Of a DNA stretch of 64,000 nt, positions 34,576 to 63,683 are shown one piece after another. Below the pieces are notes generated by a model. That model had not been told where the DNA came from, did no database searches, and saw only the letters and a list, made by a program, of their open reading frames with translations. A program made the translations under genes and the position numbers. This DNA comes from Halobacterium sp. CBA1132. Its GTDB lineage: Archaea > Halobacteriota > Halobacteria > Halobacteriales > Halobacteriaceae. The stretch is from contig NZ_BCMZ01000001.1 of assembly GCF_001485535.1 (NCBI RefSeq), positions 1 to 64,000 of the forward strand. The letters are read 5' to 3'. Positions within the stretch are counted from its first letter, which is position 1, and each line of letters begins with the position of its first letter.

Positions 34576-34648
34576 GGGCGCGTAGCTCAGCGGACAGAGC
34601 ACTTGGTTCCGGACCAAGATGTCAGGGGTTCAAATCCCTTCGCGCCCG
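34576..34648 (+). tRNA. tRNA-Arg (anticodon CCG)
   Basis: A 73-nt cloverleaf: acceptor gggcgcg pairs with cgcgccc (34641-34647), anticodon stem cttgg/ccaag with loop ttccgga giving anticodon CCG, and T arm cagggGTTCAAATccctt. No CCA encoded and no intron. It reads CGG codons. Base composition falls sharply right after it, so this tRNA probably marks the insertion point of the accessory island; its 3' end was not found a second time in the window. Confidence 0.95.
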
Positions 34649-34987
34649 TCATTCTCCATAACGATCCAAAATCAACAGACTGCAGTACGTTCCTTATAAA
34701 GAACGTCCGTCTGGCTCATTTGAATTCGTTATAACTCATAGCGGGGGTCGCCGCCTTCGTGCGGTTATCTAAACTAAACTCCGCCGAGAGTTAAACGTTA
34801 GGTAAGTACGACTCCGTTGACGACTCTCTTGTGTGGTCGAGACTCGCTAATGAATTATGCTAACCGGGTCCTGTGAGTAGGATTTACGTCTGGCGGTGTA
34901 CTCTCGTCGTCGGTATCCTCGGCTGTGGCGCTATTCCATCCACTTGGTGGCATCAACCTCGTCAGTAGTGTCGTGCGCTCTTCGTAC
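34649..34987. other. non-coding stretch at the island edge
   Basis: About 340 bp right after the tRNA, A/T-richer than the core. No open frame of note, no integrase fragment and no second tRNA end were found. A short inverted repeat acgttc...gaacgt surrounds ttataaa at 34687-34704, which may be a promoter-like element. Confidence 0.5.
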
Positions 34988-39603: not shown

Positions 39604-39755
39604 CCGAGTGAGGTGAGGTTGACCATCCGGTAACTAGTTAGCTGTGTTTCTCCAAACCCGCGATACGAGTCTTGCACCGGTGAATTACGGATAAAGATAC
39701 GGGTTGAAACGCGTCACTCCTAACGCCGGGACGCCCCTGCATCCTTTTGCAGCTA

Positions 39756-40523
39756 ATGACTTCCAAGATCGCGGTTACGAACCAGAAAGGCGGAGTCGGA
39801 AAGACAACCATCGCCATCAACGTTGCAGGGGCACTCGCGGCCCGTAACCACGACGTCCTACTCGTGGACCTCGACCCACAAGGCCACGGAACAGAAGGAC
39901 TGGGTCTACAAGCGAAGTATGAATCTGAGTCACCGAACCTTCACGACGTCCTGCTCGATCTCGACGACCAAGACCAGATTAACGAGCTGATTGACCAGCA
40001 CGAAGAATTCGACGTTCTCCCGTCGAATATCGACTTGTTCGCTGCTGAATCCGAGCTAACGACCGCGATGCGTAGCCGTCACCGCCTCCAGCTAGCTCTC
40101 GACTCCCTCAACCACGACTACGATTTCATCCTCGTCGATTGCCCTCCGTCGCTCGGACAACTCACGGACAACGCCCTACTCGCGTGCGAGCATGCACTGG
40201 TTCCTGCGCTAGCGGAATCGACCTCTATCCGCGCGTTAGAGCTGGTCCACGGCCAGATGGCCACCCTCGAACAGAATTTTGAGACGACCATTAAGGAGAT
40301 TGGAATCGTCGCAAATCGTGTCGAACCAGATGGACAGAGCGAGGAGATGATGCAGTGGTTCGACGACAACTTCGATGGAATCCCAGTCTGGGAAGTCCGC
40401 AAGCGGGTCGCACTGCAACGTGCATGGAGTGCCGGTGTTTCGATTCACCAGCATAGCGAGGACTGCGATATGGAGGCCGTATTCGAGTCGATTGCAACTC
40501 GGCTTGAGGAGGTCGCAGCATGA
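39756..40523 (+). CDS. ParA-family partition ATPase
   Basis: A 255-residue ParA ATPase. The deviant Walker A is NQKGGVGKTT (9-18), switch I is DLDPQGHGTEGLG, and the Walker B-like strand is FILVDCPPSLG. These ATPases move or position replicons and large complexes. No DNA-binding N-terminal domain is present, so it is the small ParA type. The next gene overlaps by 4 bp (ATGA) and should encode the partner. Its presence suggests that the island derives from a plasmid-like replicon. Confidence 0.92.
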   Translation: MTSKIAVTNQKGGVGKTTIAINVAGALAARNHDVLLVDLDPQGHGTEGLGLQAKYESESPNLHDVLLDLDDQDQINELIDQHEEFDVLPSNIDLFAAESELTTAMRSRHRLQLALDSLNHDYDFILVDCPPSLGQLTDNALLACEHALVPALAESTSIRALELVHGQMATLEQNFETTIKEIGIVANRVEPDGQSEEMMQWFDDNFDGIPVWEVRKRVALQRAWSAGVSIHQHSEDCDMEAVFESIATRLEEVAA

Positions 40524-40918
40524 CGGGACGAGATACTAACTTTGACCGTCTCAACGGGCGCTTCTCTGACGACGATAGCTCATCTAATACTGAGGAACAG
40601 CCTGAGACGTCTAGGACGGAACAGACAGAAAAACCGTCTGAACCGGTAAAGACAGAAAAACCGTCTAAAACGGTAAAACCGTCTGAACCGGTAAAAACGG
40701 AAGAAAGCGAGACTGGGACGGTGAAAGACCGGCCCCACCTGATGATGTATCTCCCGTCGGAACAGCTCGAAGAATTGGCTCTGACCTTCGACGAGCTTAA
40801 TCTCCAGCACAAACGCGCACACGGGACTGCGTTAGAGAAAAACCGCGATTACTATCCCGCGCTCATCAAGGCCGGATTAGAAAACCGAGAACGCCTCGAA
40901 GACTTGCTGAACCTCTAG
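40520..40918 (+). CDS. probable ParA partner with repeat-rich N-terminus
   Basis: A 132-residue protein translationally coupled to ParA. Residues about 37-65 are a low-complexity repeat (EKPSEPVK, EKPSKTVK, PSEPVKTEE) and the C-terminal half (RPHLMMYLPSEQLEELALTFDELNLQ onward) looks like a compact helical, possibly ribbon-helix-helix, DNA-binding domain. The coding DNA of the repeat (accgtctgaaccggtaaa and variants) resembles the island's partition-like repeats. Position makes it the likely centromere-binding partner; no ParB signature is seen. Confidence 0.65.
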   Translation: MTGRDTNFDRLNGRFSDDDSSSNTEEQPETSRTEQTEKPSEPVKTEKPSKTVKPSEPVKTEESETGTVKDRPHLMMYLPSEQLEELALTFDELNLQHKRAHGTALEKNRDYYPALIKAGLENRERLEDLLNL

Positions 40919-42426: not shown

Positions 42427-42517
42427 CGGTCGTGACGCAGTGGGGTGGGTTTGACAGTCGCGACGGGCGTGACGCAGTGGGGTAGGATTTGTCAGTCATG
42501 ACGCCGTGGTGTGTTGT
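42427..42517 (+). promoter_or_regulatory. repeat-bearing promoter region of cassette 1 (motif 1)
   Basis: Three related direct repeats precede the ATG at 42518: gtcggtcgtgacgcagtggggt (from 42425), gggcgtgacgcagtggggta (from 42466) and catgacgccgtggtgtg (from 42498). The first is repeated exactly over 32 bp at 58615-58646. The second matches, over some 30 bp, the reverse strand at 60675-60705 directly upstream of the paralogous gene. Conservation in front of both paralogs argues for an operator. Core: gac-r-c-r-gtggggt. Confidence 0.65.
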
Positions 42518-42802
42518 ATGGTCGACCCAGACGACTACGAATCCGACCCCGACCTCGGTGACGACGAGGTTGCGCGTGTACGGGAGGAACTTCGGGGGCG
42601 ACTGGACGAGGAGACGTTCGGGGAGCTAGACGTCGGGGAAGCGGCGGCGCTCACTATCCAGCAGGCGCAGGGGCGACAGACTATCCGGACGGTCGGGCAG
42701 GCCCTCGGCCTCGACGAAAACAAATCTGCGTGGGAAATTGTCGCGGGTACACACGAAGCCCTCGATCTCGATCCCGAGGCCGATGTTGACGGCGGTGTCT
42801 GA
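42518..42802 (+). CDS. small acidic protein, first gene of duplicated cassette (copy 1)
   Basis: A 94-residue acidic, helix-rich protein (VREELRGRLDEETF, AAALTIQQAQGRQTIRTVGQAL, VAGTHEALDLDPEAD). It is clearly paralogous to the product of 60385-60657 (by eye about half the residues identical, same length, both starting MVDPD). No known domain recognised. In both places it precedes an ArsR-like winged-helix gene and follows a conserved repeat, so it is probably a partner or co-regulator in the same circuit. Confidence 0.75.
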   Translation: MVDPDDYESDPDLGDDEVARVREELRGRLDEETFGELDVGEAAALTIQQAQGRQTIRTVGQALGLDENKSAWEIVAGTHEALDLDPEADVDGGV

Positions 42803-42844
42803 ATCTGATTCCTGTTCTTAGGTCGTGTATCGTCTGAATTGGAG

Positions 42845-42869
42845 GGATTTAGACTCGCGAGACGGGGTG
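42845..42869. promoter_or_regulatory. motif 2 upstream of the winged-helix gene (cassette 1)
   Basis: The sequence ggatttagactcgcgagacg followed by gggtg lies 64 bp before the start of the winged-helix gene. It matches, on the opposite strand, the caccCCTGCTCGCGTTTGTAAATCC repeat that occurs twice before the paralogous gene and at least six more times at 60.77-61.14 kb. Likely operator of this regulator. Confidence 0.55.
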
Positions 42870-42932
42870 GGGGTCGCGGTCTAGCTAGTCGCGTTGTCAC
42901 GGCTTATGATGCCGGCGGACTAACACGTCGAT

Positions 42933-43478
42933 ATGCCTGTCTCCGACGACGTAATTGACGGGTTGGAGGACCAGTATCTCGACGACCACTTGCTCGACCT
43001 ACCGCGCTACCTTGACGTTCTGAAGCTCGCCTCAGACCCGACGCGATTTGCCCTCCTCGACGAACTCCGGGATGCAGGCAACGAGGGAAAGACTCCCGAC
43101 GAGCTGGCCGCCGCGCTCGATCTCGACGAATCCGAGGTCTGCGACGATATCGGCGCGCTCTCCGAACGGTACCTCGTCCGGCGGTGGCGCGATTCGGACG
43201 AGGGCGAACAAGGAACGCACATGCACCTCGAAATCGGGGGATACGGCTTAGCCGCTCTCGACGCCGTTGAAGAACTTCTCGAAGCCGAAACGCGCGCGAA
43301 TGAATACTTCCGGAGCGACGACGACCCCGGCAGTGGGGATGACGACGATGGAGACGACTCGCCGTTAACGCGTTATGGGCCTTATGACGGGCCAGCGGTC
43401 TCAGCTGTGCGGATAATCGAGTCCGGGTGCGACGACCCTCGGCGGTCTGATGGTACGGATGACACGGAGGACAGCTAG
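42933..43478 (+). CDS. ArsR-like winged-helix regulator, second gene of duplicated cassette (copy 1)
   Basis: A 181-residue regulator. The winged helix spans about residues 25-110: LPRYLDVLKLASDPTRFALLDEL, then KTPDELAAALDLDESEVCDDIGAL and a wing ending GTHMHLEIGGYGLAALDAVEELL. Its first 130 residues are strongly similar to the product of 59824-60219; the last 50 form an acidic tail absent from that copy. Conserved cassette order, and motif 2 in front of it, suggest an autoregulated DNA-binding protein that may also bind the repeat array at 60-61 kb. Confidence 0.85.
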   Translation: MPVSDDVIDGLEDQYLDDHLLDLPRYLDVLKLASDPTRFALLDELRDAGNEGKTPDELAAALDLDESEVCDDIGALSERYLVRRWRDSDEGEQGTHMHLEIGGYGLAALDAVEELLEAETRANEYFRSDDDPGSGDDDDGDDSPLTRYGPYDGPAVSAVRIIESGCDDPRRSDGTDDTEDS

Positions 43479-48270: not shown

Positions 48271-48330
48271 CCGTCGGTTAGTGTCCTGCTCACCGCAGAA
48301 CATATAGTGGTCCGAAGGGACCTACACGGT

Positions 48331-49833
48331 ATGCCTCTCTCTTTGGATGACCTCGAAACGCACTTGTTCAAGTGTGCGGACATCATCCGCGACGCCGTTG
48401 ACCCGACCGACTACAAGGAGTACATTCTGCCGCTGGTCTACTACAAGTCTATCTCCGATGAGTTCGAAAAACAGTACGCTGAGAACGTCGAGGAGTACGG
48501 CGAAGACTTCGCCCGCCGAAACAACCTCTACGACATCCCGGTCGTTCCTGAAGGCTATCTGTGGGCGGATATTCGCGCCGTCAGCGACAACGTCGATCAA
48601 GCCCTGAACGAGGCCTTCGACGCACTCACCGAAGAGAACCCCGAGCTAGCTGGCGTCTTCCGCGCGGACTACATCGACGCGGACGCGCTCGACGACGACC
48701 GTCTCGGCAAGCTAGTCGAACACCTCTCGAAGCACGACCTCGACCGCGACAGCATCCCCCCAGACATGCTCGGAGAGGCGTACATGGACCTTGTGCGCCA
48801 CTTCGCAGAAGAAGAGGGCAAGTCCGGTGGGCAGTTCTTCACGCCCCCGCACATCGTCAATCTCTGCGTTCGCCTCGTCGATGACTTCGAGGACGGAATG
48901 ACGTTCCACGATCCAACCGTGGGTTCTGGTGGGATGCTCATCGAGGCCGCGCGCTACTACCGTGACGAGCAGAGTAGTGACCCGACGAAGCTGACGTTCA
49001 CCGGGCAGGAAATCAACCCGGATATTGCGGCGATTGCGAAGATGAACCTCTCCATCCATGGACTGGATGGCGAGATTCGGCGCGAAGATTCCCTCTCGAA
49101 TCCTGCCTTCACGAACGACGAGGAGAACGAGCTGACGCGCTTCGACCGTGTGCTAGCTAATTTCCCGTTCTCCGCTGATTGGGCGAAAGACGACCTCCAA
49201 GACGACCCGTACGGGCGCTTCGACTGGCACGAAAAACTCCCACGTGCCGACCGAGGCGACTACGCCTTCATCATGCACATGGCGAAGCAGTTGAAGCGTC
49301 CCGAACGCGATGAGGCAGGGGGGAAAGCCGCTATCGTCATCCCTCACGGCGTGCTGTTCCGCAAGCACGAGTCGCGGTATCGGGAGTACATGCTTGAGAA
49401 TGATATGGTGGAGGCCATCGTCGGACTTCCCGAGAATCTATTCCAGAACAATTCGATTCCCTCCGCAGTCCTCGTATTGAACACGGACAAACCCGCCGAA
49501 CGCGAGGGCGAAGTACAGTTCATCCACGCCGCAGACGAGGCGTTCTACGAGGAACTATCGAACCAGAACGAACTCACCGAGGACGGCCTCGACCACATCG
49601 TTGAGAACTTCCGCGAGTGGACGATCGAAGAGCGCGTTAGTCGCACGGTGTCGCTCGGTGAGATTCGAGAGAACGACTACAACCTCAACATCGCGCTGTA
49701 CGTCGATACCACAGAGCCGGAGGAGGATGTTGATGTGGCGGAGGAACTGGCGAAGTTACGCGAGTTACAGGCTGAACGGGATGAGATTGAGGCGACGATG
49801 ACGGAGCATTTGGAGGCGTTGAGCTATGAGTGA
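48331..49833 (+). CDS. hsdM: type I restriction-modification methyltransferase subunit HsdM
   Basis: A 500-residue N6-adenine methyltransferase. An N-terminal HsdM bundle is followed by GGQFFTPPHIV (167-176), the SAM-binding HDPTVGSGGML (193-203), and catalytic motif IV in the form NFPF (277-280) rather than the usual NPPF. It methylates host DNA and, with HsdS and HsdR, forms the restriction complex. A TATA-like box (catatag, 48301-48307) 27 bases before the ATG implies a leaderless mRNA. It overlaps hsdS by 8 bp. Codon use is close to the core, unlike much of the island. Confidence 0.94.
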   Translation: MPLSLDDLETHLFKCADIIRDAVDPTDYKEYILPLVYYKSISDEFEKQYAENVEEYGEDFARRNNLYDIPVVPEGYLWADIRAVSDNVDQALNEAFDALTEENPELAGVFRADYIDADALDDDRLGKLVEHLSKHDLDRDSIPPDMLGEAYMDLVRHFAEEEGKSGGQFFTPPHIVNLCVRLVDDFEDGMTFHDPTVGSGGMLIEAARYYRDEQSSDPTKLTFTGQEINPDIAAIAKMNLSIHGLDGEIRREDSLSNPAFTNDEENELTRFDRVLANFPFSADWAKDDLQDDPYGRFDWHEKLPRADRGDYAFIMHMAKQLKRPERDEAGGKAAIVIPHGVLFRKHESRYREYMLENDMVEAIVGLPENLFQNNSIPSAVLVLNTDKPAEREGEVQFIHAADEAFYEELSNQNELTEDGLDHIVENFREWTIEERVSRTVSLGEIRENDYNLNIALYVDTTEPEEDVDVAEELAKLRELQAERDEIEATMTEHLEALSYE

Positions 49834-51199
49834 GGACGCTACGTTAGACGAGTTTGTGAAGAACGAGGAGAACCCCTCAAATCTTGAACTCGGCCCTATC
49901 GAGATTAATATTCCCCCGAAGTGGGACTCAGAAGAACTTTCTGACCTGTTCAATCTCATTTCTGGAAATAATTATACCGGGGAACACCTCTCCGAGGAGG
50001 ATAACGGAGGACGGGTATTTCTCACGTTAAAGTCGGTGAACAAAGGAGGGGGATTCAATCAGGATAGTATAAAATACTATACTGGAGAGGTGAACCAGAG
50101 AGAAATAGTCGAGCCGGGCGAGTTACTAATCGCAAATACAGATGTTACCCAAGATGGAGATATTGTAGGGTATTCGATTAGAGTACCAGAGTTTGAGTCA
50201 GAAAGAGAAATTGCGGCCTCTATGGATTTGTCTATCCTTCGCCCGAAGACCAAGGACGTGAATTTGCCGTATATTGAGCATCTCCTCCAGACTGAATATA
50301 TTCATTCTCGAATGAGGGCGTTTAGTGCTGGTTCAACAGTTCTTCATCTAAACACCGACCTCGTGAAGTCGCTCTCTCTGCCACTCCCACCACTCCCCGA
50401 ACAGCGCAAAATCGCCACCGTACTCTCCACGGTTGACCGGGCGATCGAGAAGTCTGAGGAGGTCATAGCACAGACAGAACGCCTTAGAGAAGGGGCGATG
50501 CAAGACTTATTCTCTCGTGGAGTTCGTGGTTATGATGATTTCCAAGAGACGAAGTATGGCATTATCCCGGCCAGTTGGGAGGTTAAGCCAGTACGTGAGA
50601 TAGCAGACCGAATTGGTTCTGGTGGAACTCCGAATACAGACAAAGAGGGGTACTATGGAGGAGATATTGAATGGGTCAAAACAGATGACTTGAATAGCGG
50701 GTTAGTTGAATCTGCTAAAACTACAATAACATCGCGGGGGCTGGACGAGTCAGCGGCTAAATTATTCCCCGAGGGTACAGTCGTGTTTGCGATGTACGGC
50801 GGTGCATTAGGGCAGAATGGCCGGTTAGGAATGGAGGCGGCTATGAATCAGGCTTGTTGTGGAATCGTCACTGACGAGTCAGAGATGAACTCCTACCTCC
50901 TACACCAGCAACTCATCCATCGAAAGAAACAACTCACCGCTCTAAGCGCCGGAACTCACCAGCAGAATATTTCCCAATCTATGATTGAGAAGTTCGAGGT
51001 GTTTGTCCCCCCTCTCGATGAACAAATGGAGATGGTGGATATTCTAAAGAGTATAGAGAGGACGATGGAGGCGAACACGAACGAAAAAGAGCGGCTAAAG
51101 CGACTCAAGCACGGTCTGATGCAAGACCTCCTCTCCGGAACAGCCCGCACGACCGACACTAACATAGAGGTGCCCGAGGAAATCGCGCAGTATGGTTAG
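49826..51199 (+). CDS. hsdS: type I restriction-modification specificity subunit HsdS
   Basis: A 457-residue specificity subunit with two target-recognition domains (about 20-190 and 245-405), each followed by the conserved spacer: LPLPPLPEQRKIATVLSTVD (about 188-207) and VPPLDEQMEMVDILKSIE. Each domain reads one half of a bipartite target. The DNA of the recognition domains is A/T-rich compared with hsdM and hsdR, as expected for exchanged modules. It overlaps both neighbours by 8 bp. Target sequence cannot be read from the protein. Confidence 0.93.
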   Translation: MSEDATLDEFVKNEENPSNLELGPIEINIPPKWDSEELSDLFNLISGNNYTGEHLSEEDNGGRVFLTLKSVNKGGGFNQDSIKYYTGEVNQREIVEPGELLIANTDVTQDGDIVGYSIRVPEFESEREIAASMDLSILRPKTKDVNLPYIEHLLQTEYIHSRMRAFSAGSTVLHLNTDLVKSLSLPLPPLPEQRKIATVLSTVDRAIEKSEEVIAQTERLREGAMQDLFSRGVRGYDDFQETKYGIIPASWEVKPVREIADRIGSGGTPNTDKEGYYGGDIEWVKTDDLNSGLVESAKTTITSRGLDESAAKLFPEGTVVFAMYGGALGQNGRLGMEAAMNQACCGIVTDESEMNSYLLHQQLIHRKKQLTALSAGTHQQNISQSMIEKFEVFVPPLDEQMEMVDILKSIERTMEANTNEKERLKRLKHGLMQDLLSGTARTTDTNIEVPEEIAQYG

Positions 51200-54152
51200 C
51201 ACCCCATCCGAGGGCGGCGTCGAACGCTCGCTTCTCTCGTGGCTCGACGGCATCGGATGGGAGACACACGGACAGGACGGCGACCGTGGTGCAAACGTTC
51301 TTGATGAGGCCTACGAGCGCGACAGCCACGAGGTCATCTACTGGAACCTCTTCGCCGAGCAGGTCGTCGCGTTGAACGAGGATGTGACCGAGGATAACGT
51401 CGATAAGTTCGTTTCTTCCCTTCGTCGCGACCTCGACACCGAGAACCTGATGGACGGAAACCGCGCGTTCTACCAGTTGCTCACCAAGGGCAAGACGTTC
51501 AACGTCCAGCGCGATGACGGCACGACCGAAACCATCTACGTTGACCTGATTGACCACGAGAATCCCGAACAGAACCGCTTCCACGCGGTCAATCAGTTTT
51601 CTGTCTCGCGTGAGACGACAATTCGCCCGGACGTCACTCTGTTCGTCAACGGGATTCCGCTCGTCACGATGGAGCTGAAGAGTCGCGCACAGGACAACGA
51701 CTGGCACGACGCTGTCAGCGACCTCAAAGCCTACGAGGACGACGTCCCTCGGCTGTTCGTTCCCGGTCTGTTCAACGTCGCTGCCGACACGATGGAACTG
51801 CGCTACGGTGCGGTCGGCGCTCCCCGCGAGTTCTATGAACCGTGGAACGACGCCCCGGCAGAGTTCGAGGACGACAACGAGATGCGGCAGGCGGTGAAGG
51901 CGCTCTGCAATCCTGATACGCTGCTGGACCTGCTGAAGAACTTCGTGTTCTACGAGCGGCGTGCTGGTGGTGACGCGAAGATTGTCCCGCGCTACATGCA
52001 GTATTACGCGGTCAATCGTATCCTCGACCGCGTTCGTCGGGGTGAACACAAGCGCGGGCTCATCTGGCACACTCAAGGGTCGGGCAAGTCGTTCACCATG
52101 CTGTACGCTGCTGAGAATCTGCTCTCACAGCCGACTGTCGCGAAGAACCCGCAGGTGTTCGTGATCGTCGATACGGACAAGCTCAACAGCCAGATGCGCG
52201 ACCAGCTAGCGAACCTCTCGTTGGAGCAGTGGACGGAAGCCGAGAGTATCGACCACCTCCAGCAGCTCATCGAAGAGGGGCAAAGCCAGCTAGTCCTTAC
52301 GACGATCCAGAAATTCGAGGACGTAGACCCCGACGTCCAAGGCAACGACGAAGTCGTCGTCATGTCCGACGAAGCCCACCGCTTCATGGAAGCCGACCTC
52401 GGGAGTCGCCTCGAAGCAGCGCTTCCCGACTGCTATCACTTCGGCTTCACCGGCACCCCTGTCCGTGAAGGAGAGAAACACGAGGACCGCAACACGTTCC
52501 GTGAATTCTCGCCCGAAGACGAGGACTACCTGCATCGCTACTCTGTCAAGCAGGGTATCGACGACGGCCTGATTCTGCCCGTCTACTTCACACTGCGCCA
52601 CGAAATGGAGTGGGAGATAGACGAGGCGGGCTTAGACGAAGAGTTCGAGCAGGAATTCCGTGGCATGACCACGGACGAAAAGCGGGAGGCAATTCGCGAG
52701 AACGTGACTGCGACGACGCTCGCAGAAATTGAACCCCGGGTCAATCGTGCTGTTGCGGAGATTGACCAGCACTATGGCGACCACGTAGCGCCGAACGGGT
52801 GGAAGGGGATGGTTGTGACGCCGAGTCGCCGGTCAGCCGCGATGTACGGTGAACGGCTCATCGACCGGCGTGGCGAGGACGAGGTCGAGGTCCTCTACAC
52901 CTCAACGAAAGACGATCCCGAGCTAATCCAGCAGTTCCACACCGACTCCGAGGAGCGTGACAGCATCGTCAAGGCGTTCAAGGAAGACGAGAATCCGAAA
53001 CTCCTCGTCGTCCACAACATGCTCCTGACGGGGTTCGACGCGCCGATATTGAAGACGATGTACCTCGACCGGAACCTGAAAAACCACAACCTCATGCAGG
53101 CTATCGCCCGCACCAACCGGCCTGCCGAAGGAAAGGAAAACGGCGAGATCGTGGACTTTCAGGGCGTCTTCGAGAACATCGACGAGGCGTTGGACTACGA
53201 CGCCGAGACGAAAGCGTACGCAGCCCGTGACAAGGACGACCTCTACGACGACCTCGTAGACCAGCTAGACACGGTGATGGGAATCTTCGATGGAATACCG
53301 AAGGAGGACACCCAAGAGGCGACCTACGAGGCCGTCGAGCGTGTCAGCACTCACCCGGAACGTCGTGAGTTCAAACAAGGATTCCGCCGGCTGCAAAACC
53401 TCTACGAGGCAGTCGCTCCAGACGGCCGGCTCGTCAGCGAAGGCATCGAGGACGACTACAAGTGGCTCAGCCGGATTCACGTCGCGTTCAAACGCACGGC
53501 GTCGGGCGATGAATCCCCGGAGGAAGACATGCGCGAGAAGACGCGGGATATCATCAACGACCACGTCGAGATTACGGATATCAAGCGTGACTTCCCGACG
53601 TACAAACTGGGCGAAGAGTACCTTGAGGACGTCGAGGGACTAGAGAATCCCGGCGTGAAAGCGTCCCAAATCGCCCACGCAACCCGCGAACACCTTCACC
53701 CTCGGGAGAATCAGAACCCTCGATACAAGCGGCTAAGCGAACGCGTGACGGATATCGTCGAACGCTGGCAAGGGGACGAAATTAGCGACCCCGAGGCTGT
53801 TGAGGCACTGAGATCAGTTGAGGAGGACGTCCTTGAGGTCGAGAAAGAAGCTGAAGAACAGGGGATGGGTGATGCTGAATTCGCAATCTACACCCATCTT
53901 ACCGAGGAGACACCAGACGCAATCGAGTCCGAAGAGCAGGCCGAAGAGATTGCTGCTGAGATCGTCTCCCAATTCCGTGAGCGCGTGGACCGAGGCTACC
54001 ACGGCTGGCAGACGAACCAGCAGACCATCGCTGAAATCGAGCGTATTCTGCTAGACGTCCTCGTGAAGGAACGTAATCTCGGGTCCTTGATTCAGGATCA
54101 CGACGACTTCATCGACGTGATGCGGAACTACCTCATCCGAAATCATGGCTAA
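51192..54152 (+). CDS. hsdR: type I restriction subunit HsdR (helicase-nuclease)
   Basis: A 986-residue motor subunit. The endonuclease core is RPDVTLFVNGIPLVTMELKS (Asp147, Glu161, Lys163). The SF2 translocase follows: Walker A HTQGSGKSFTM (about 293-303), DEAD-box form SDEAHR near 391, motif III GFTGTP, and motif VI QAIARTNRP. The C-terminal 250 residues are helical and bind HsdM/S. It pulls and cuts unmethylated foreign DNA. 8-bp overlap with hsdS and with the next gene. Confidence 0.95.
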   Translation: MVSTPSEGGVERSLLSWLDGIGWETHGQDGDRGANVLDEAYERDSHEVIYWNLFAEQVVALNEDVTEDNVDKFVSSLRRDLDTENLMDGNRAFYQLLTKGKTFNVQRDDGTTETIYVDLIDHENPEQNRFHAVNQFSVSRETTIRPDVTLFVNGIPLVTMELKSRAQDNDWHDAVSDLKAYEDDVPRLFVPGLFNVAADTMELRYGAVGAPREFYEPWNDAPAEFEDDNEMRQAVKALCNPDTLLDLLKNFVFYERRAGGDAKIVPRYMQYYAVNRILDRVRRGEHKRGLIWHTQGSGKSFTMLYAAENLLSQPTVAKNPQVFVIVDTDKLNSQMRDQLANLSLEQWTEAESIDHLQQLIEEGQSQLVLTTIQKFEDVDPDVQGNDEVVVMSDEAHRFMEADLGSRLEAALPDCYHFGFTGTPVREGEKHEDRNTFREFSPEDEDYLHRYSVKQGIDDGLILPVYFTLRHEMEWEIDEAGLDEEFEQEFRGMTTDEKREAIRENVTATTLAEIEPRVNRAVAEIDQHYGDHVAPNGWKGMVVTPSRRSAAMYGERLIDRRGEDEVEVLYTSTKDDPELIQQFHTDSEERDSIVKAFKEDENPKLLVVHNMLLTGFDAPILKTMYLDRNLKNHNLMQAIARTNRPAEGKENGEIVDFQGVFENIDEALDYDAETKAYAARDKDDLYDDLVDQLDTVMGIFDGIPKEDTQEATYEAVERVSTHPERREFKQGFRRLQNLYEAVAPDGRLVSEGIEDDYKWLSRIHVAFKRTASGDESPEEDMREKTRDIINDHVEITDIKRDFPTYKLGEEYLEDVEGLENPGVKASQIAHATREHLHPRENQNPRYKRLSERVTDIVERWQGDEISDPEAVEALRSVEEDVLEVEKEAEEQGMGDAEFAIYTHLTEETPDAIESEEQAEEIAAEIVSQFRERVDRGYHGWQTNQQTIAEIERILLDVLVKERNLGSLIQDHDDFIDVMRNYLIRNHG

Positions 54153-54867
54153 AGCCGACTCACGGTCGATTGACCTCTTGGGGAAGACCGTCGAGTACGA
54201 TGTCCAACGTAGTACGGAGGCCTCGGAGCCTCGGATTGATGTCGATATTCACGGTGTGACTGTTGTCCTCCCTGATTCGGAGGAAGTCCAACCGGCGACG
54301 TTGCTCAAGGAGAACGCGGCATGGGTGGTGGACAAACGGCAGCAGTATGAGGCTCACCGGGAGCAGGTGCCTGACCGAACGTTTGCGGCCGGGGAACAGT
54401 TTCCGTATCTGGGGGAGCCCCGCACGCTGGTTGTGGCGCCGTGCCGGAAACACTCCGTGCAGGACGACACAATCCGACTCCGCCAGAGTGCGGTTGAACA
54501 GTCCTCGGTAGAGCAGGTACTGGAGAACTTCTACCGTGGTCGTGCCCGAGACTATCTCACGGATCGAGCTGACCACTACGCCGAACAGATGGGCGTGGAC
54601 TACGAGGCATTAGAGCTGCGGAATCAACGGACACGGTGGGGGAGCTGTTCGACAAACGGGACGCTTAGTCTGAATTGGCGAATTATCATGGCACCGCCTG
54701 ATGTCGTCGATTACCTCCTCGTCCACGAATTAGCACACCTAACTGAACAGCATCATGGCGAGGAGTTTTGGAAGCTTGTCGCGGATTATGTGCCGGACTA
54801 TCAGGCGAAAGACCAGTGGCTCACTGAAAACAGCGTGAAGCTGATTTTCAGCGAGGACGATCTTTAG
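54145..54867 (+). CDS. YgjP-like zinc metallopeptidase linked to the hsd operon
   Basis: A 240-residue protein of the YgjP/DUF45 family. Zinc site: YLLVHELAHLTEQHHGEEFW (HExxH plus a later His), preceded by the family mark QRTRWGSCSTNGTLSLNWRI. Its ATG overlaps the hsdR stop by 8 bp, so it belongs to the operon. YgjP-like genes often accompany type I systems; they may process or limit the complex, an unproven suggestion. No signal peptide, hence cytoplasmic. Confidence 0.88.
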   Translation: MAKADSRSIDLLGKTVEYDVQRSTEASEPRIDVDIHGVTVVLPDSEEVQPATLLKENAAWVVDKRQQYEAHREQVPDRTFAAGEQFPYLGEPRTLVVAPCRKHSVQDDTIRLRQSAVEQSSVEQVLENFYRGRARDYLTDRADHYAEQMGVDYEALELRNQRTRWGSCSTNGTLSLNWRIIMAPPDVVDYLLVHELAHLTEQHHGEEFWKLVADYVPDYQAKDQWLTENSVKLIFSEDDL

Positions 54868-58459: not shown

Positions 58460-59823
58460 TCTTCGAATCCCTTACTAGTTTGTCAAAATTTGATTCGGCA
58501 GTCGGGTTGATAAATGTATACGTTGCACCACCCCAGAATTGTGGTCTGATGGCGTGTCAGAGGTTCACCCTATTCCAAAGCTAGCTGGTTCGTCTAGCGT
58601 CCTCGCTCCGATGACGGTCGTGACGCAGTGGGGTGGGTTTGACAGTGATGACACCGTGGTATCCTGTACAGACACAACGACATCGACGATAAGGGCACAG
58701 CGGTTGAGTAGTCCGAGCGCGAGGAGGGGTGTGTTCCCGACAGCTAGCTGGCGGTTCCTGTACATGCTGTTTGGATATTCTCGGGATTCCGTTGGTCGGA
58801 ATACCGGTGAGGCGGTCAGAACGACGCTCAACGCTCGTATTCGATAGGTCTTGTTGTACTGCAATCTAAGACGTTTGTAACGGTACAACCGGTAAGGACG
58901 TCTAAGACGTTTGTAACGGTACAACCGTCTCAACCAGTAAAACTCTCCTTAGATCGTCGGTCCCGGAGAGAACCCGTCGAACACGATTAGTCTTCGTCGT
59001 CGATACTGGTGCTATACGGTTTCTTGTGAGACCTGAGTGCGAGTGCGACATCTTTAATCGGGAAAAAGAGCCAAATTTACCCCTTAGACTCCTCCTCAAT
59101 ACTGTTCATCAGTAGTTGACAGTATTACTGCTCACTGTGAATGCCCGCTAATAGTGGGCGTTAATGATGGGCGTTAATTATACGCATCATTAGTGGTCTG
59201 TTGAGGAGGACTGCACAGCTGCTGAACACTTCTGTAACGACACTAGCTGATGCTTTCTTCGGAACACCCGCCACTGTGTCGAGTGTAACCACTGGATAGG
59301 GACTATCAAATAGCCGTAATCGTGGATTTAGGATTGAATTTGCAGCTAGCTCTACGACGACTGGATAGTTGGAGACACACCCCAGCGTGTCGAGTGTTTA
59401 GACACCATAGAGCGCCTATACCTAGAGAAATCTCTGATGAACGGTTGAGACTTGCTTCTGCTTCGCGTTAATTTCCACACCCCCCACCATGTCGAGTGTT
59501 CCATAACCGATCTCTCACAACAGCCTGTGAAAGATCAATAACCGGTTTCGAACACCACCTAGCGCCCCACCCCCACCGTGTCGAGTGTCCGTAAGGGACT
59601 CTTCACAAACCATGAGCCGTTCGAGATCAGTAACCTCTCCCCGAACCACCGTGTCGAGTGTTCTATTTCTTTATAACCCCCACACACCCCACCGTGTCGA
59701 GTGTCCGTAAGGGAATCTTCACAAGGATTCTGGGGTGCTTCCTGCTGTATCCTCCACCGTGGCGAGTACTTTCCCCTCCCCGTTTCGAGTTAGTTCTATC
59801 AGGCCATGAACAAGGAACACCAG
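58460..59823. repeat. non-coding repeat-rich region, left part of the array
   Basis: About 1.36 kb with no credible gene. It holds: the 32-bp copy of the cassette 1 promoter repeat (58615-58646); two tandem copies of tctaagacgtttgtaacggt plus acaacc (58865-58890, 58901-58926); a run of motif 1 repeats from 59276; and agctagct palindromes at 58579, 58742 and 59344. Composition is intermediate and A/T-rich patches alternate with repeats. Confidence 0.7.
58865..58926. repeat. tandem 26-bp repeat, partition-site-like
   Basis: Two exact copies of tctaagacgtttgtaacggt followed by acaacc, 36 bp apart, with a third near-copy 20 kb away at 38232-38256. Following bases ccgtctcaaccagtaaaac resemble the repeats inside the ParA-partner gene. 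Suggests a specific protein-binding site used at two places in the element. Confidence 0.6.
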
Positions 59824-60219
59824 CTAGCTGTCGCTCCGAAAGTATTCTGCTGCACGCCGGTCCGCTGCCAGCAGCTCCTCGAACGCGTCGAAGGCAGCGA
59901 GTCCATAACCGCTAATCTCGCAGTGCAGATGAGTTCCCGGCTGGTTTTGATTGGCCTCGCGCCACCGATTGGCAAGCCCGACCTCAACTAGAACGTCGAT
60001 ATGATCGCGAATAGAAGACTCGTTGAGGTCGAGCGCGTCTGCCAACTCGGCCGGTGAACGCCCGTCGTTGCCCGCTTCGTTCAGCTCGGTGAGGATAGCG
60101 AACCGAGTCGGGTCCGCCATCGTACCCAGCAAGTCGAGATAGTGCGGGAGATCGAGCGGATTGTCGTCAGTAAGATACCGAGTCTCTAACTCGTCCAGAA
60201 CATCGTCGGAGACAGGCAT
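59824..60219 (-). CDS. ArsR-like winged-helix regulator, second gene of duplicated cassette (copy 2)
   Basis: A 131-residue regulator paralogous to 42933-43478: both open MPVSDDV and share LPxYLDxL, ADPTRFAxLxEL, the helix-turn-helix (SPAELADALDLNESSIRDHI) and GTHLHCEISGYGLAAFDAFEELL. It lacks the acidic tail of copy 1. Two motif 2 repeats (60290 and 60361) lie between it and the upstream small gene, suggesting autoregulation. It sits inside the repeat array, making it the first candidate for the array-binding protein. Confidence 0.85.
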   Translation of the reverse strand: MPVSDDVLDELETRYLTDDNPLDLPHYLDLLGTMADPTRFAILTELNEAGNDGRSPAELADALDLNESSIRDHIDVLVEVGLANRWREANQNQPGTHLHCEISGYGLAAFDAFEELLAADRRAAEYFRSDS

Positions 60220-60384
60220 ATCGAGTTGTTAGTCTGCCGGCATCTAAGCGGTACCGACGGAGACAAGATATCCATACCCCACCCCTCGTCGCGTTTGTAA
60301 ATCCCCGGTATACGACAGTTCGGCCCCTGAAACGAGCGGCTAGAAACCGGAACACCCCTGCTCGCGTTTGTAAACGGGATAGGG

Positions 60385-60657
60385 CTATCCATCAACCTCG
60401 GGTTCGAGATCGAGGGCTTCGTGCGTTCCCGCGACGCACTCAAACGCGACGCTGTGGTCGGTGTCGAGGGCCTGCCCGACTGTCCGGATTGTATGCAAGC
60501 CCTGAGCCTGATTAATCGCCAACTCTGCCGCTTCTTGGACGTTAATACTCTCGAAATCCTCCTCGTCCAACCGCTCCCGAAGCCCCTGCCTAACGAGCGC
60601 GATCTCGGCGTGGTCCAAGTCCGGGTCTTCGGAATAGTATTCGTCTGGGTCTACCAT
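60385..60657 (-). CDS. small acidic protein, first gene of duplicated cassette (copy 2)
   Basis: A 90-residue paralog of 42518-42802: MVDPDEYYSEDPDL, GLRERLDEEDFE, AINQAQGLHTIRTVGQALD and CVAGTHEALDLEPE line up without gaps except one residue. Helical and acidic, no known domain. Its upstream region (60675-60705) carries the same repeat as copy 1. Cassette order is the same, but the cassette is inverted relative to copy 1. Confidence 0.8.
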   Translation of the reverse strand: MVDPDEYYSEDPDLDHAEIALVRQGLRERLDEEDFESINVQEAAELAINQAQGLHTIRTVGQALDTDHSVAFECVAGTHEALDLEPEVDG

Positions 60658-61425
60658 ATCGGTTCAACACAGGGCCACGACTGACAAACTTACCCCGCCG
60701 TGTCAAGAGTCCATAAGGGGTTCTTTACAGGGAGTACCCCCTCCACCGTGGCGAGTGTTCTTCGACACCCCTGCTCGCGTTTCTAAATCCACTCTACACA
60801 CGACCCTCAAAGCCTGAGCCGACTGGTTTGAAAACCCGATTCTCCCGCTCGCGTTCGTACATGGGATAGGACACCTCCGTGTCGAGTGTTCTTCCGCACA
60901 CCCCGGCTCGCGTTTCTAAATCACTCAATTATAGCGAGTACAAGACCTAAAACACAAGAATCCTCCCCAAGCAACCCTATAACCTCCTCGCGTTTGTAAA
61001 TGGGATAGGGTACATTCCACCGTGGCGAGTGTTCTTCCACACCCCTGCTCGCGACTGTAAATCCACTCTACATACGAGCCTCAAAGCCTGAGAAGACTGG
61101 TTTGAAAAAGGGACACCCCTGCTCGCGACTGTAAAGGGGATAGGATACCACCGTGTCGAGTGTCCATAAGACAGCGTGCAAATCACGTAACGGACGCAAC
61201 CAGCTAGCTGGTGTCCTCACCGGGAACACTCCCCAGCGTGTCGAGTGTCCGTAACGGAATCTTCACAGCGAGTTATGAAACCCCCATAACGATAGCTGAT
61301 TGGCGATTTTCAGAATAGGAACGACGATCCACGCAGCATATAAACCACGTTGGAGTCATTACCCGCTCGGAGCATCATGTCGGCTAGTAGCACCGTTCTT
61401 ATGGCTTCGTCTCGAAGGCACGATA
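60658..61425. repeat. non-coding repeat-rich region, right part of the array, with a 274-bp period duplication
   Basis: About 770 bp without a gene between cassette 2 and the kinase. Segment 60743-60890 is repeated at 61017-61164, every motif shifted by exactly 274 bp (motif 1 at 60748/61022 and 60879/61153; motif 2 at 60774/61048 and 60848/61122), with gcctgagccgactggtttga-type sequence conserved between. agctagct is at 61202-61209. Confidence 0.7.
60675..60705 (-). promoter_or_regulatory. motif 1-type promoter repeat of cassette 2
   Basis: Read on the minus strand, tgacacggcggggtaagttt followed by gtcagtcgtgg lies 18 bp before the start of the 90-aa gene. Cassette 1 has tgacgcagtggggtaggatt then tgtcagtcatg 18 bp before its start. 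The conserved place and spacing support an operator or promoter element. Confidence 0.6.
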
Positions 61426-62802
61426 ATGATGGAATGGCCCGAGGCGCAGTCTGCCGCAGAGACCACGCGCCAAGCGTCCCCTGCCGGCCTCCGGGCAGAA
61501 CTCGGGTCTCATAATCTGCCACGCCATCTCGCGCTCTTCTACCGGGAGAACGAAGCCCAGTTGGCCGCCACTACAGCCTTCCTCGTCGAAGGTCTCCAGT
61601 CTGGCCACCGCTGTGTCTACCTGCTTGATGTCAACACCGCTGGCGACATCAAATCGGCTCTCCGGCGAGCCAATATCGACGTCGAGCAACGGATTAACGC
61701 TGGCGACCTCGTCATTCGAGATGCTGAGGATGTCTACCTCGAATCCGGATTCGACCCTAATAAGATGGTTTCGACGCTCGAAACTGAGGCCAACGCCAGC
61801 GTTGCGGAGGGCTACGATGGGTTGTGGCTCGCCGGCGAGAACTCGTGGTGTTTCCATACCGACCAGTCGTTCGACCATATTCTCGACTTCGAAGCAGACT
61901 TCGACGCCGCCTGCCCGGACCTCCCCGTTACCGCACTCTGCCAGTACGACCTCGATCGCTTCAACGGAACGTCGGCCGCGAAAGCCCTCCGTACTCACGA
62001 ACAGATCGTCTACCGCAACCAACTCTGCAGGAACCCCTTCTACATCCCACCTGAGGATTATCGTTCGACCGATAGCTCGGAGTTGAACGCGCCACTGATG
62101 CTGGAGCAAGCGTACTCGCTGACCAACGCCCGCCGCGACATCAACGAACGCGAACAGCGGTTAGGGATCGTCAATCGCGTGCTTCGGCACAATATCCGTA
62201 ATGACCTGAATCTCGTGAAGGGGACGCTTGAATTGTTAGACGAGACGGAGTCGTTGTCCGCCGAGAATCACCAGCGACTGGCGATCGCCACCGAGCATGC
62301 TGAATCGGTCATCGAGATAGCGGAGAAAGCCCGCTACATCCAACAAACGACCGGCGATACGACGGTCGAACCACAGCAACTTGGCCCACTTATTAGGTCA
62401 GCCGCCGAAGAAGTGACAGCCGAATATTCGGCTGCGGACATCCAGTTTTCCGGAGCGGACGGCGTAACGGTGCTTGCTGATGCGAACCTCGACGTTGCGG
62501 TGCGCGAAGCCCTTGAGAATGGAATTATCCATCAGGAGACGGATTCTCCAACCGTTGTCGTCTCTGTTTCGACGCCGAACGAAGACATGGCCCAGATCGA
62601 GATTCAGAACGAAGGCTCGATTCCGGATTTGGAACGGTATACGTTGGAGAAGGGCGAGGAGACCCCGTTAGAGCATTCGAGCGGGCTTGGCCTCTGGCTG
62701 ATCAAGTGGGTTGTCGAGAACGCGCACGGGTCGATTGAATTTCCAGACCCAGACTCAGGCGAGGCACGCCTACAGATCGAATTGTACCGCGTTCCCTCAT
62801 AG
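61426..62802 (+). CDS. MEDS-domain histidine kinase
   Basis: A 458-residue cytoplasmic sensor kinase. The N-terminal MEDS domain (about 25-205: HLALFYRENEAQLAATTAFL, GHRCVYLLD, CQYDLDRF) is of the DcmR type, thought to bind small molecules. Then a dimerisation helix with the phospho-acceptor RVLRHNIRNDLNLV, and an ATPase domain with N box REALENGIIHQ and G box SSGLGLWLIKWVVENAHG. No membrane segment and no receiver gene next to it, as is usual in haloarchaea. ATG at 61426 follows the array directly. Confidence 0.88.
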   Translation: MMEWPEAQSAAETTRQASPAGLRAELGSHNLPRHLALFYRENEAQLAATTAFLVEGLQSGHRCVYLLDVNTAGDIKSALRRANIDVEQRINAGDLVIRDAEDVYLESGFDPNKMVSTLETEANASVAEGYDGLWLAGENSWCFHTDQSFDHILDFEADFDAACPDLPVTALCQYDLDRFNGTSAAKALRTHEQIVYRNQLCRNPFYIPPEDYRSTDSSELNAPLMLEQAYSLTNARRDINEREQRLGIVNRVLRHNIRNDLNLVKGTLELLDETESLSAENHQRLAIATEHAESVIEIAEKARYIQQTTGDTTVEPQQLGPLIRSAAEEVTAEYSAADIQFSGADGVTVLADANLDVAVREALENGIIHQETDSPTVVVSVSTPNEDMAQIEIQNEGSIPDLERYTLEKGEETPLEHSSGLGLWLIKWVVENAHGSIEFPDPDSGEARLQIELYRVPS

Positions 62803-63501: not shown

Positions 63502-63683
63502 TGAATCTCTGACTGGGACTGTTCGGCAGGTTTCTCACCTGTATTGAACGGAATTTCATTCTCTGCTAGGAATATAGAAACCGTAGGCGGAACTCACTGA
63601 GAACGAACGACAGCAGCTAGCTGGCACTTTCCCCCGGAGACACCCCACCATGTCGAGTGTAATAGCCCGATAGAAACCGTAAG

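Follow-up and report, generated by a model that had tools for sequence, protein, structure and literature searches.

Repeated initiator sites, together with operator copies, control replication by titration at iteron-controlled plasmid origins and at bacterial titration loci of the datA type. Among haloarchaea, 11 origin recognition boxes (ORBs) lie within 722 bp at oriC2D of Haloarcula hispanica, downstream of cdc6E, where they exert a negative effect on oriC2, likely via titration of Cdc6E (PMC3936714). At haloarchaeal origins that adjoin an orc1/cdc6 gene, the ORBs lie inverted around that gene (PMC3528665), and a halophile-specific G-string serves as a criterion for an ORB (PMC3528665; PMC3936714). 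Origins not adjacent to orc/cdc6 were explicitly excluded in PMC3528665, and ORB-dense regions without an initiator gene have been little studied.

Here we describe a region of this kind in a 64,000-nucleotide stretch of the genome of Halobacterium sp. CBA1132 (NZ_BCMZ01000001.1, positions 1 to 64,000; hereafter the window). It resembles oriC2D in that predicted ORBs are packed into a short intergenic region (13 in 2 kb, compared with 11 in 722 bp) for which titration can be proposed; however, the oriC2D array adjoins its own cdc6 gene, whereas the array in the window has no cognate orc1/cdc6 in the genome and is interleaved with a second, apparently non-ORB family of sites. The boxes match those of the orc1/cdc6-adjacent origins (PMC3528665), including that of plasmid pR1SE2, in both sequence and G-string, but the locus has no adjacent orc1, its ORBs share one orientation and two unrelated small genes stand in the middle of the array. 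With autoregulated operons of the ArsR family it shares a small ArsR-like winged-helix (wHTH) gene with a site ahead of the gene's own promoter, seen in both of a pair of paralogous cassettes; unlike in those operons, the site is present eightfold and phased with ORBs, the partner is a predicted orphan helical protein, and no metal- or effector-linked partner gene was seen. The likeness to iteron origins and datA loci concerns only how such loci work, as the window carries what read as archaeal Orc1 boxes and no iteron-type Rep gene was found.

A dense array of origin recognition boxes lacking its initiator

The first of two repeat families, motif 1, is present in 14 copies, all on the minus strand and thus not inverted as the ORBs of an orc1/cdc6-adjacent origin are:

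59264–59770, minus strand: left cluster of motif 1, seven copies (59264, 59375, 59477, 59566, 59639, 59682 and 59747)
60688–61249, minus strand: right cluster of motif 1, six copies interleaved with motif 2, starting at 60688 (in the promoter of a gene for a 90-aa protein), 60736, 60867, 61010, 61141 and 61226
63638–63661, minus strand: isolated fourteenth copy of motif 1 (27 bits)

Thirteen of the copies (59264–61249) form a dense cluster in a short, mostly non-coding region. Elsewhere in the order, ACACTCGRCACGGTGG was matched with at most one mismatch in 148 of 392 genomes, with many singletons and, in many genomes, clear clusters. In 11 genome regions (L102–L112), motif 1 stands on the minus strand to one side of an orc1/cdc6 gene and on the plus strand to the other, and the box–gene–box layout of the Halorubrum plasmid pR1SE2 is equal to theirs. 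The Orc1 proteins flanked in this way form one clade (support 98/99), from which all seven host Orc1s are excluded. At its 3' end, the consensus carries the halophile G-string, GGGGTGTG, which is degenerate in some copies of the window. Because inverted arrays surround a single orc1 family in the 11 regions and on pR1SE2, we assign motif 1, on this comparative evidence, as the ORB belonging to an Orc1/Cdc6 family that is widespread among haloarchaea, with an Orc1 protein as its most likely ligand.

None of the seven Orc1 genes of the host belongs to this family, the best host match to the cognate protein being 46% identical as against 89–100% for the cognate carried by three other genomes of the same taxonomic family (G011, G015 and G025). 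Where host Orc1 genes show ORBs, these differ from motif 1 (TTCCACTCGAAACGAAGGGGTGGG, GAACACTCGAAAACCGGGGGTGGG, GAACACATCGATAGAGGGGTGTG and TTACACTTCGATGACGGGGG), and host matches to motif 1 are confined to the window and to a single strand. Neither an adjacent orc1/cdc6 gene nor a recognisable remnant of one was found within the 100 kb read around the locus. Since motif 1 reads as an ORB and the cognate Orc1 family is not encoded in the genome, the 14 copies are, judged by comparison, an orphan ORB array.

Two further arrangements of motif 1 were seen in other genomes. In G147 (L115:4126–4485), nine copies in one orientation, spaced by ~42 bp, lie ~600 bp from an Orc1 gene that belongs to a different family and is accompanied by other repeats of its own, and this may be a second orphan ORB array. 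A candidate orphan array around a toxin–antitoxin-like pair in G276 (L120:4409–8689) was rejected on account of an adjoining truncated cognate orc1; it reads as a normal origin that has been disrupted, with a DUF433/PIN-like gene pair and a transposase-like gene lying within it. In the host genome, decayed fragments of further orc1 genes were noted at G000:C3:50811–51258 and 54300–54599, the first ~70% identical to the C3 Orc1.

A second repeat family, arranged in pairs

Motif 2 is present as follows:

60279–60303, minus strand: copy a1, the proximal site of the wHTH promoter, centred at −72 from the ATG
60352–60376, minus strand: copy b1, located 73 bp farther upstream than a1, in the stretch separating the 90-aa gene from the wHTH gene
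60765–60789, minus strand: copy a2
60839–60863, minus strand: copy b2, with a degenerate G-string
60898–60922, minus strand: copy a3
60978–61002, minus strand: copy b3, with a degenerate G-string
61039–61063, minus strand: copy a4
61113–61137, minus strand: copy b4
42846–42870, plus strand: the copy of the second cassette (GATTTAGACTCGCGAGACGGGGTGG), centred at −75 from the ATG of the second wHTH gene

On the minus strand, which is that of the genes, the consensus is GATTTACAAACGCGAGCAGGGGTGT, and CGCGA is invariant. The repeat is real and well above chance expectation. Allowing up to three mismatches, CTCGCGTTTGTAAAT was matched eight times in 60288–61136 and once at 42847, while dinucleotide shuffles of the window (n = 100) gave 1.0 matches on average and four at most, none of the 100 reaching nine. 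A family-size test of 15-mers in 60240–61260 returned eight copies of motif 2 against a maximum of three in 100 shuffles, bearing out the eight copies that the initial annotation had read at 60288–61135. That annotation had proposed a multiple alignment, in which copies no more alike than random sequence would speak against a repeat family; over 25 bp, all nine copies (eight within 60279–61137 and the one at 42846) aligned with a mean column identity of 85% and 10 invariant columns.

The alternation with motif 1 also holds, in the form of pairs between single motif-1 copies. Motif 2 is arranged as four b–a pairs with ~73–80 bp within a pair; three pairs lie upstream of the 90-aa gene, alternating with single copies of motif 1, and the fourth precedes the wHTH gene. 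Read along the minus strand and leaving out the isolated copy at 63638, the order is 1-1-22-1-22-1-22-1-1-[90-aa gene]-22-[wHTH gene]-1111111. In the resulting triplets of motif 2, motif 1 and motif 2, the motif-1 centres are 27–32 bp from those of the adjoining motif 2 copies. At the DNA level the array resembled no plasmid or phage, and the locus had no Rfam match indicative of a structured RNA.

Two paralogous cassettes and a putative operator

The two small genes of the array have paralogs elsewhere in the window:

59824–60219, minus strand: cassette-1 wHTH protein, 131 aa, ArsR-like (HTH_20, E 1e-13)
60385–60657, minus strand: cassette-1 90-aa acidic protein, modelled as all-helical
42518–42802, plus strand: cassette-2 counterpart of the 90-aa protein, a paralog with 65% identity
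42933–43478, plus strand: cassette-2 wHTH paralog, 62% identical over the shared part
42430–42515, plus strand: cassette-2 motif-1-like sites (TCGTGACGCAGTGGGGTG etc., three copies), before the 90-aa paralog
58612–58690, plus strand: remnant of a third cassette promoter, of the 90-aa type, with the gene missing

The proteins of the two cassettes (42518–43478, plus strand; 60657–59824, minus strand) are ~62–66% identical. The 131-aa wHTH protein scored 51 bits with the HTH_20 profile (cut-off 27) and 31 bits with HTH_5 (cut-off 22); its structure model had a pLDDT of 54, too weak for use. For the 90-aa protein, searches of Pfam, NCBIfam and PHROGs gave no match, and no winged-helix match was obtained; its all-helical model is of modest quality (pLDDT 71) and had no Foldseek match below E 3. 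Apart from one weak, stop-containing match, no relatives beyond the paralog were found in plasmids, GTDB contigs, IMG/VR or the 392 genomes of the order, and the protein is predicted to be an orphan, all-helical and not of the winged-helix type. Both cassette genes look constrained, with an excess of third-position changes, and the 90-aa ORF is very likely a real gene because the divergence of the paralogs shows this bias (35 changes at codon position 3 compared with 20 and 18 at the others). The initial annotation had placed one copy of motif 2 before each winged-helix gene; this stands for the two wHTH paralogs, with two copies in cassette 1 and one in cassette 2. There is only one such gene per cassette, and the 90-aa gene is not among them.

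The position of motif 2 is matched before both wHTH paralogs, and the alignment of their upstream regions keeps a GGATTTA...CGCGA...GGGGTGGGG block at −72/−75 as well as the core promoter. A site of the motif-1 type likewise precedes the 90-aa gene at about −42/−40 in both cassettes. The promoters of cassette 2 are laid out alike, with both sites, yet no ORB array accompanies them; the cassette therefore does not need ORBs, which counts against the replication-control reading discussed below. The motif-1-like site of cassette 2 was also considered as the ORB of another Orc1, a candidate rejected on finding one lone one-mismatch match in 391 other genomes.

Beyond the locus, more than one match to motif 2 was found solely in the genome of the window among the 293 genomes of the order searched; arrays were absent from the 292 others, three of which had one lone two-mismatch match each. 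GTDB contigs held no match to a stricter pattern, nor did IMG/VR to a degenerate one, and on these searches motif 2 was rejected as a general haloarchaeal motif. Taking position, exclusivity and conservation together, motif 2 is best read as a putative operator of the wHTH protein.

A likely integrated element as the setting

Along this haloarchaeal chromosome (contig C1 of G000), the G+C content falls from 62–74% to 40–59% after a tRNA-Arg gene (34576–34648) and rises again near 82 kb. The 19-bp 3' end of this tRNA gene, CCCTTCGCGCCCGTCATTC, is repeated directly at C1:79242, beside a tyrosine integrase gene (~77.9–78.9 kb). Because the tRNA 3' end recurs next to the integrase, an integrated element of ~44.6 kb (~34.6–79.3 kb) is likely, with the tRNA-Arg repeats (34576–34654 and 79242) as attL and attR. 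The element carries a ParA gene (39747–40523) and both two-gene cassettes, but no Orc1.

Some neighbouring features may be mentioned in their own right. A shorter, 14-bp copy of the tRNA-Arg 3' end lies at 79015. Next after the ParA gene comes a 132-aa gene assigned to PHROG 26668 (together 39747–40918), close to cassette 2, and the two are likely the partition module of the element. Genes reading as the M, S and R subunits of a type I restriction-modification system lie inside the element at 48307–54152, and on its right side the ORB array adjoins the start of a MEDS-domain histidine-kinase-like gene (61432–62802).

Discussion

We tentatively propose, at a probability somewhat short of even, that the segment at 59.26–61.25 kb is a composite replication-control region, that is, an origin or a region of initiator titration, of an integrated plasmid-like element. 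Motif 1 would provide an ORB array for an Orc1/Cdc6 family that, as comparison shows, the host genome does not encode, and motif 2 would serve as operator for the ArsR-like wHTH protein that the element itself encodes and would have been multiplied between the ORBs. Because motif 2, motif 1 and motif 2 are set ~27–32 bp apart, each ORB would be flanked by wHTH protein loaded on its two sides. There the protein could act as a gate to, or else give way to, the Orc1 of an incoming or co-resident replicon, which would couple the expression of the wHTH and 90-aa proteins to the amount of that Orc1. The net effect might lie in titrating the initiator, in incompatibility or copy control, or in borrowing a helper initiator for replication of the element. 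Against such a role in replication control stands the absence of the cognate Orc1 from the assembly. An active origin in particular is disfavoured by ORBs that all point one way and by the lack of a clear unwinding stretch, since the ORBs of working origins are usually inverted around an AT-rich stretch; no strong AT-rich stretch was seen at the locus, the maximum being 60% AT per 60 bp.

A more conservative explanation, which we consider unlikely and yet deserving of weight, is that the wHTH gene is subject to ordinary autoregulation and that passive duplication has left tandem promoter copies in a decaying origin, with no role in replication. Direct repeats of 148 bp and 58 bp are indeed present in the array, 60742–60889 and 61016–61163 being a direct repeat with 85% identity, a caveat on the observation, and in other genomes orc1 copies that have decayed and pairs of motif 1 left behind are found. 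The spacers of array units 1 and 3 are 87% identical, which marks a recent duplication and makes this pair (U1–U3) uninformative with regard to conservation; part of the array is therefore simple copying. However, units with diverged spacers (31–57% identical) keep their sites, motif 2 at 76–84% and motif 1 at 80–85% identity, and passive duplication fits poorly with the regular spacing of 27–32 and 73–80 bp or with 13 ORBs in 2 kb, compared with ~5–9 copies at the normal origins scanned.

It is distinctly improbable, to our judgement, that the orphan ORB array and the sites for the element's own regulator together act as an initiator trap and sensor in a mobile element, interfering with replication or excluding plasmids by means of decoy origins. 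If so, the Orc1 of a rival plasmid would be titrated and would displace the wHTH protein, switching on the cassette.

We assign a low probability to motif 2 being a second type of ORB, bound by some Orc1/Cdc6 instead of the wHTH protein within a mixed, two-initiator origin. The repeat starts with TTTACA, its last nucleotides are the haloarchaeal G-string (GGGGTGT), and its 10-nt core is equal in length to that of the host C3 ORB, TTTACACTTCGATGACGGGG; beyond the G-string, however, its similarity to five ORB types did not exceed that of shuffled cores (p 0.06–0.3), which leaves the ORB reading of motif 2 unsupported past the G-string. Moreover, motif 2 tracks the wHTH gene, and no clusters, hence no orc1 gene surrounded by motif 2, were found in the 293 genomes, nor any match in GTDB contigs.

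The least probable account extends that of the initial annotation, in which each cassette protein has its own operator, or one protein has both sites; the copies of both would titrate or cover the locus, with no part for Orc1. Two distinct site families are indeed multiplied in one array, each before one cassette gene, at promoter positions conserved in both cassettes, both ending in GGGGTG and with a motif-1-type site in cassette 2 that is not an ORB. However, the motif 1 of the array matches the consensus of the ORBs that go with an initiator family unrelated to the cassette, in many genomes without the cassette, and for the 90-aa protein no DNA-binding domain or fold match was found; the assignment of both site families to cassette proteins is thus not supported.

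As a composite replication-control region, our preferred reading, the locus adds a variant to the ORB-rich control regions of haloarchaea, with a putative decoy or exclusion function. Here one can test cleanly whether the boxes of an origin, acting in trans, can be decoys or an origin that is borrowed, with a second regulator on the shared DNA. Should the Orc1 of pR1SE2 or of similar plasmids be titrated by the array, this would represent archaeal plasmid exclusion through origin decoys.
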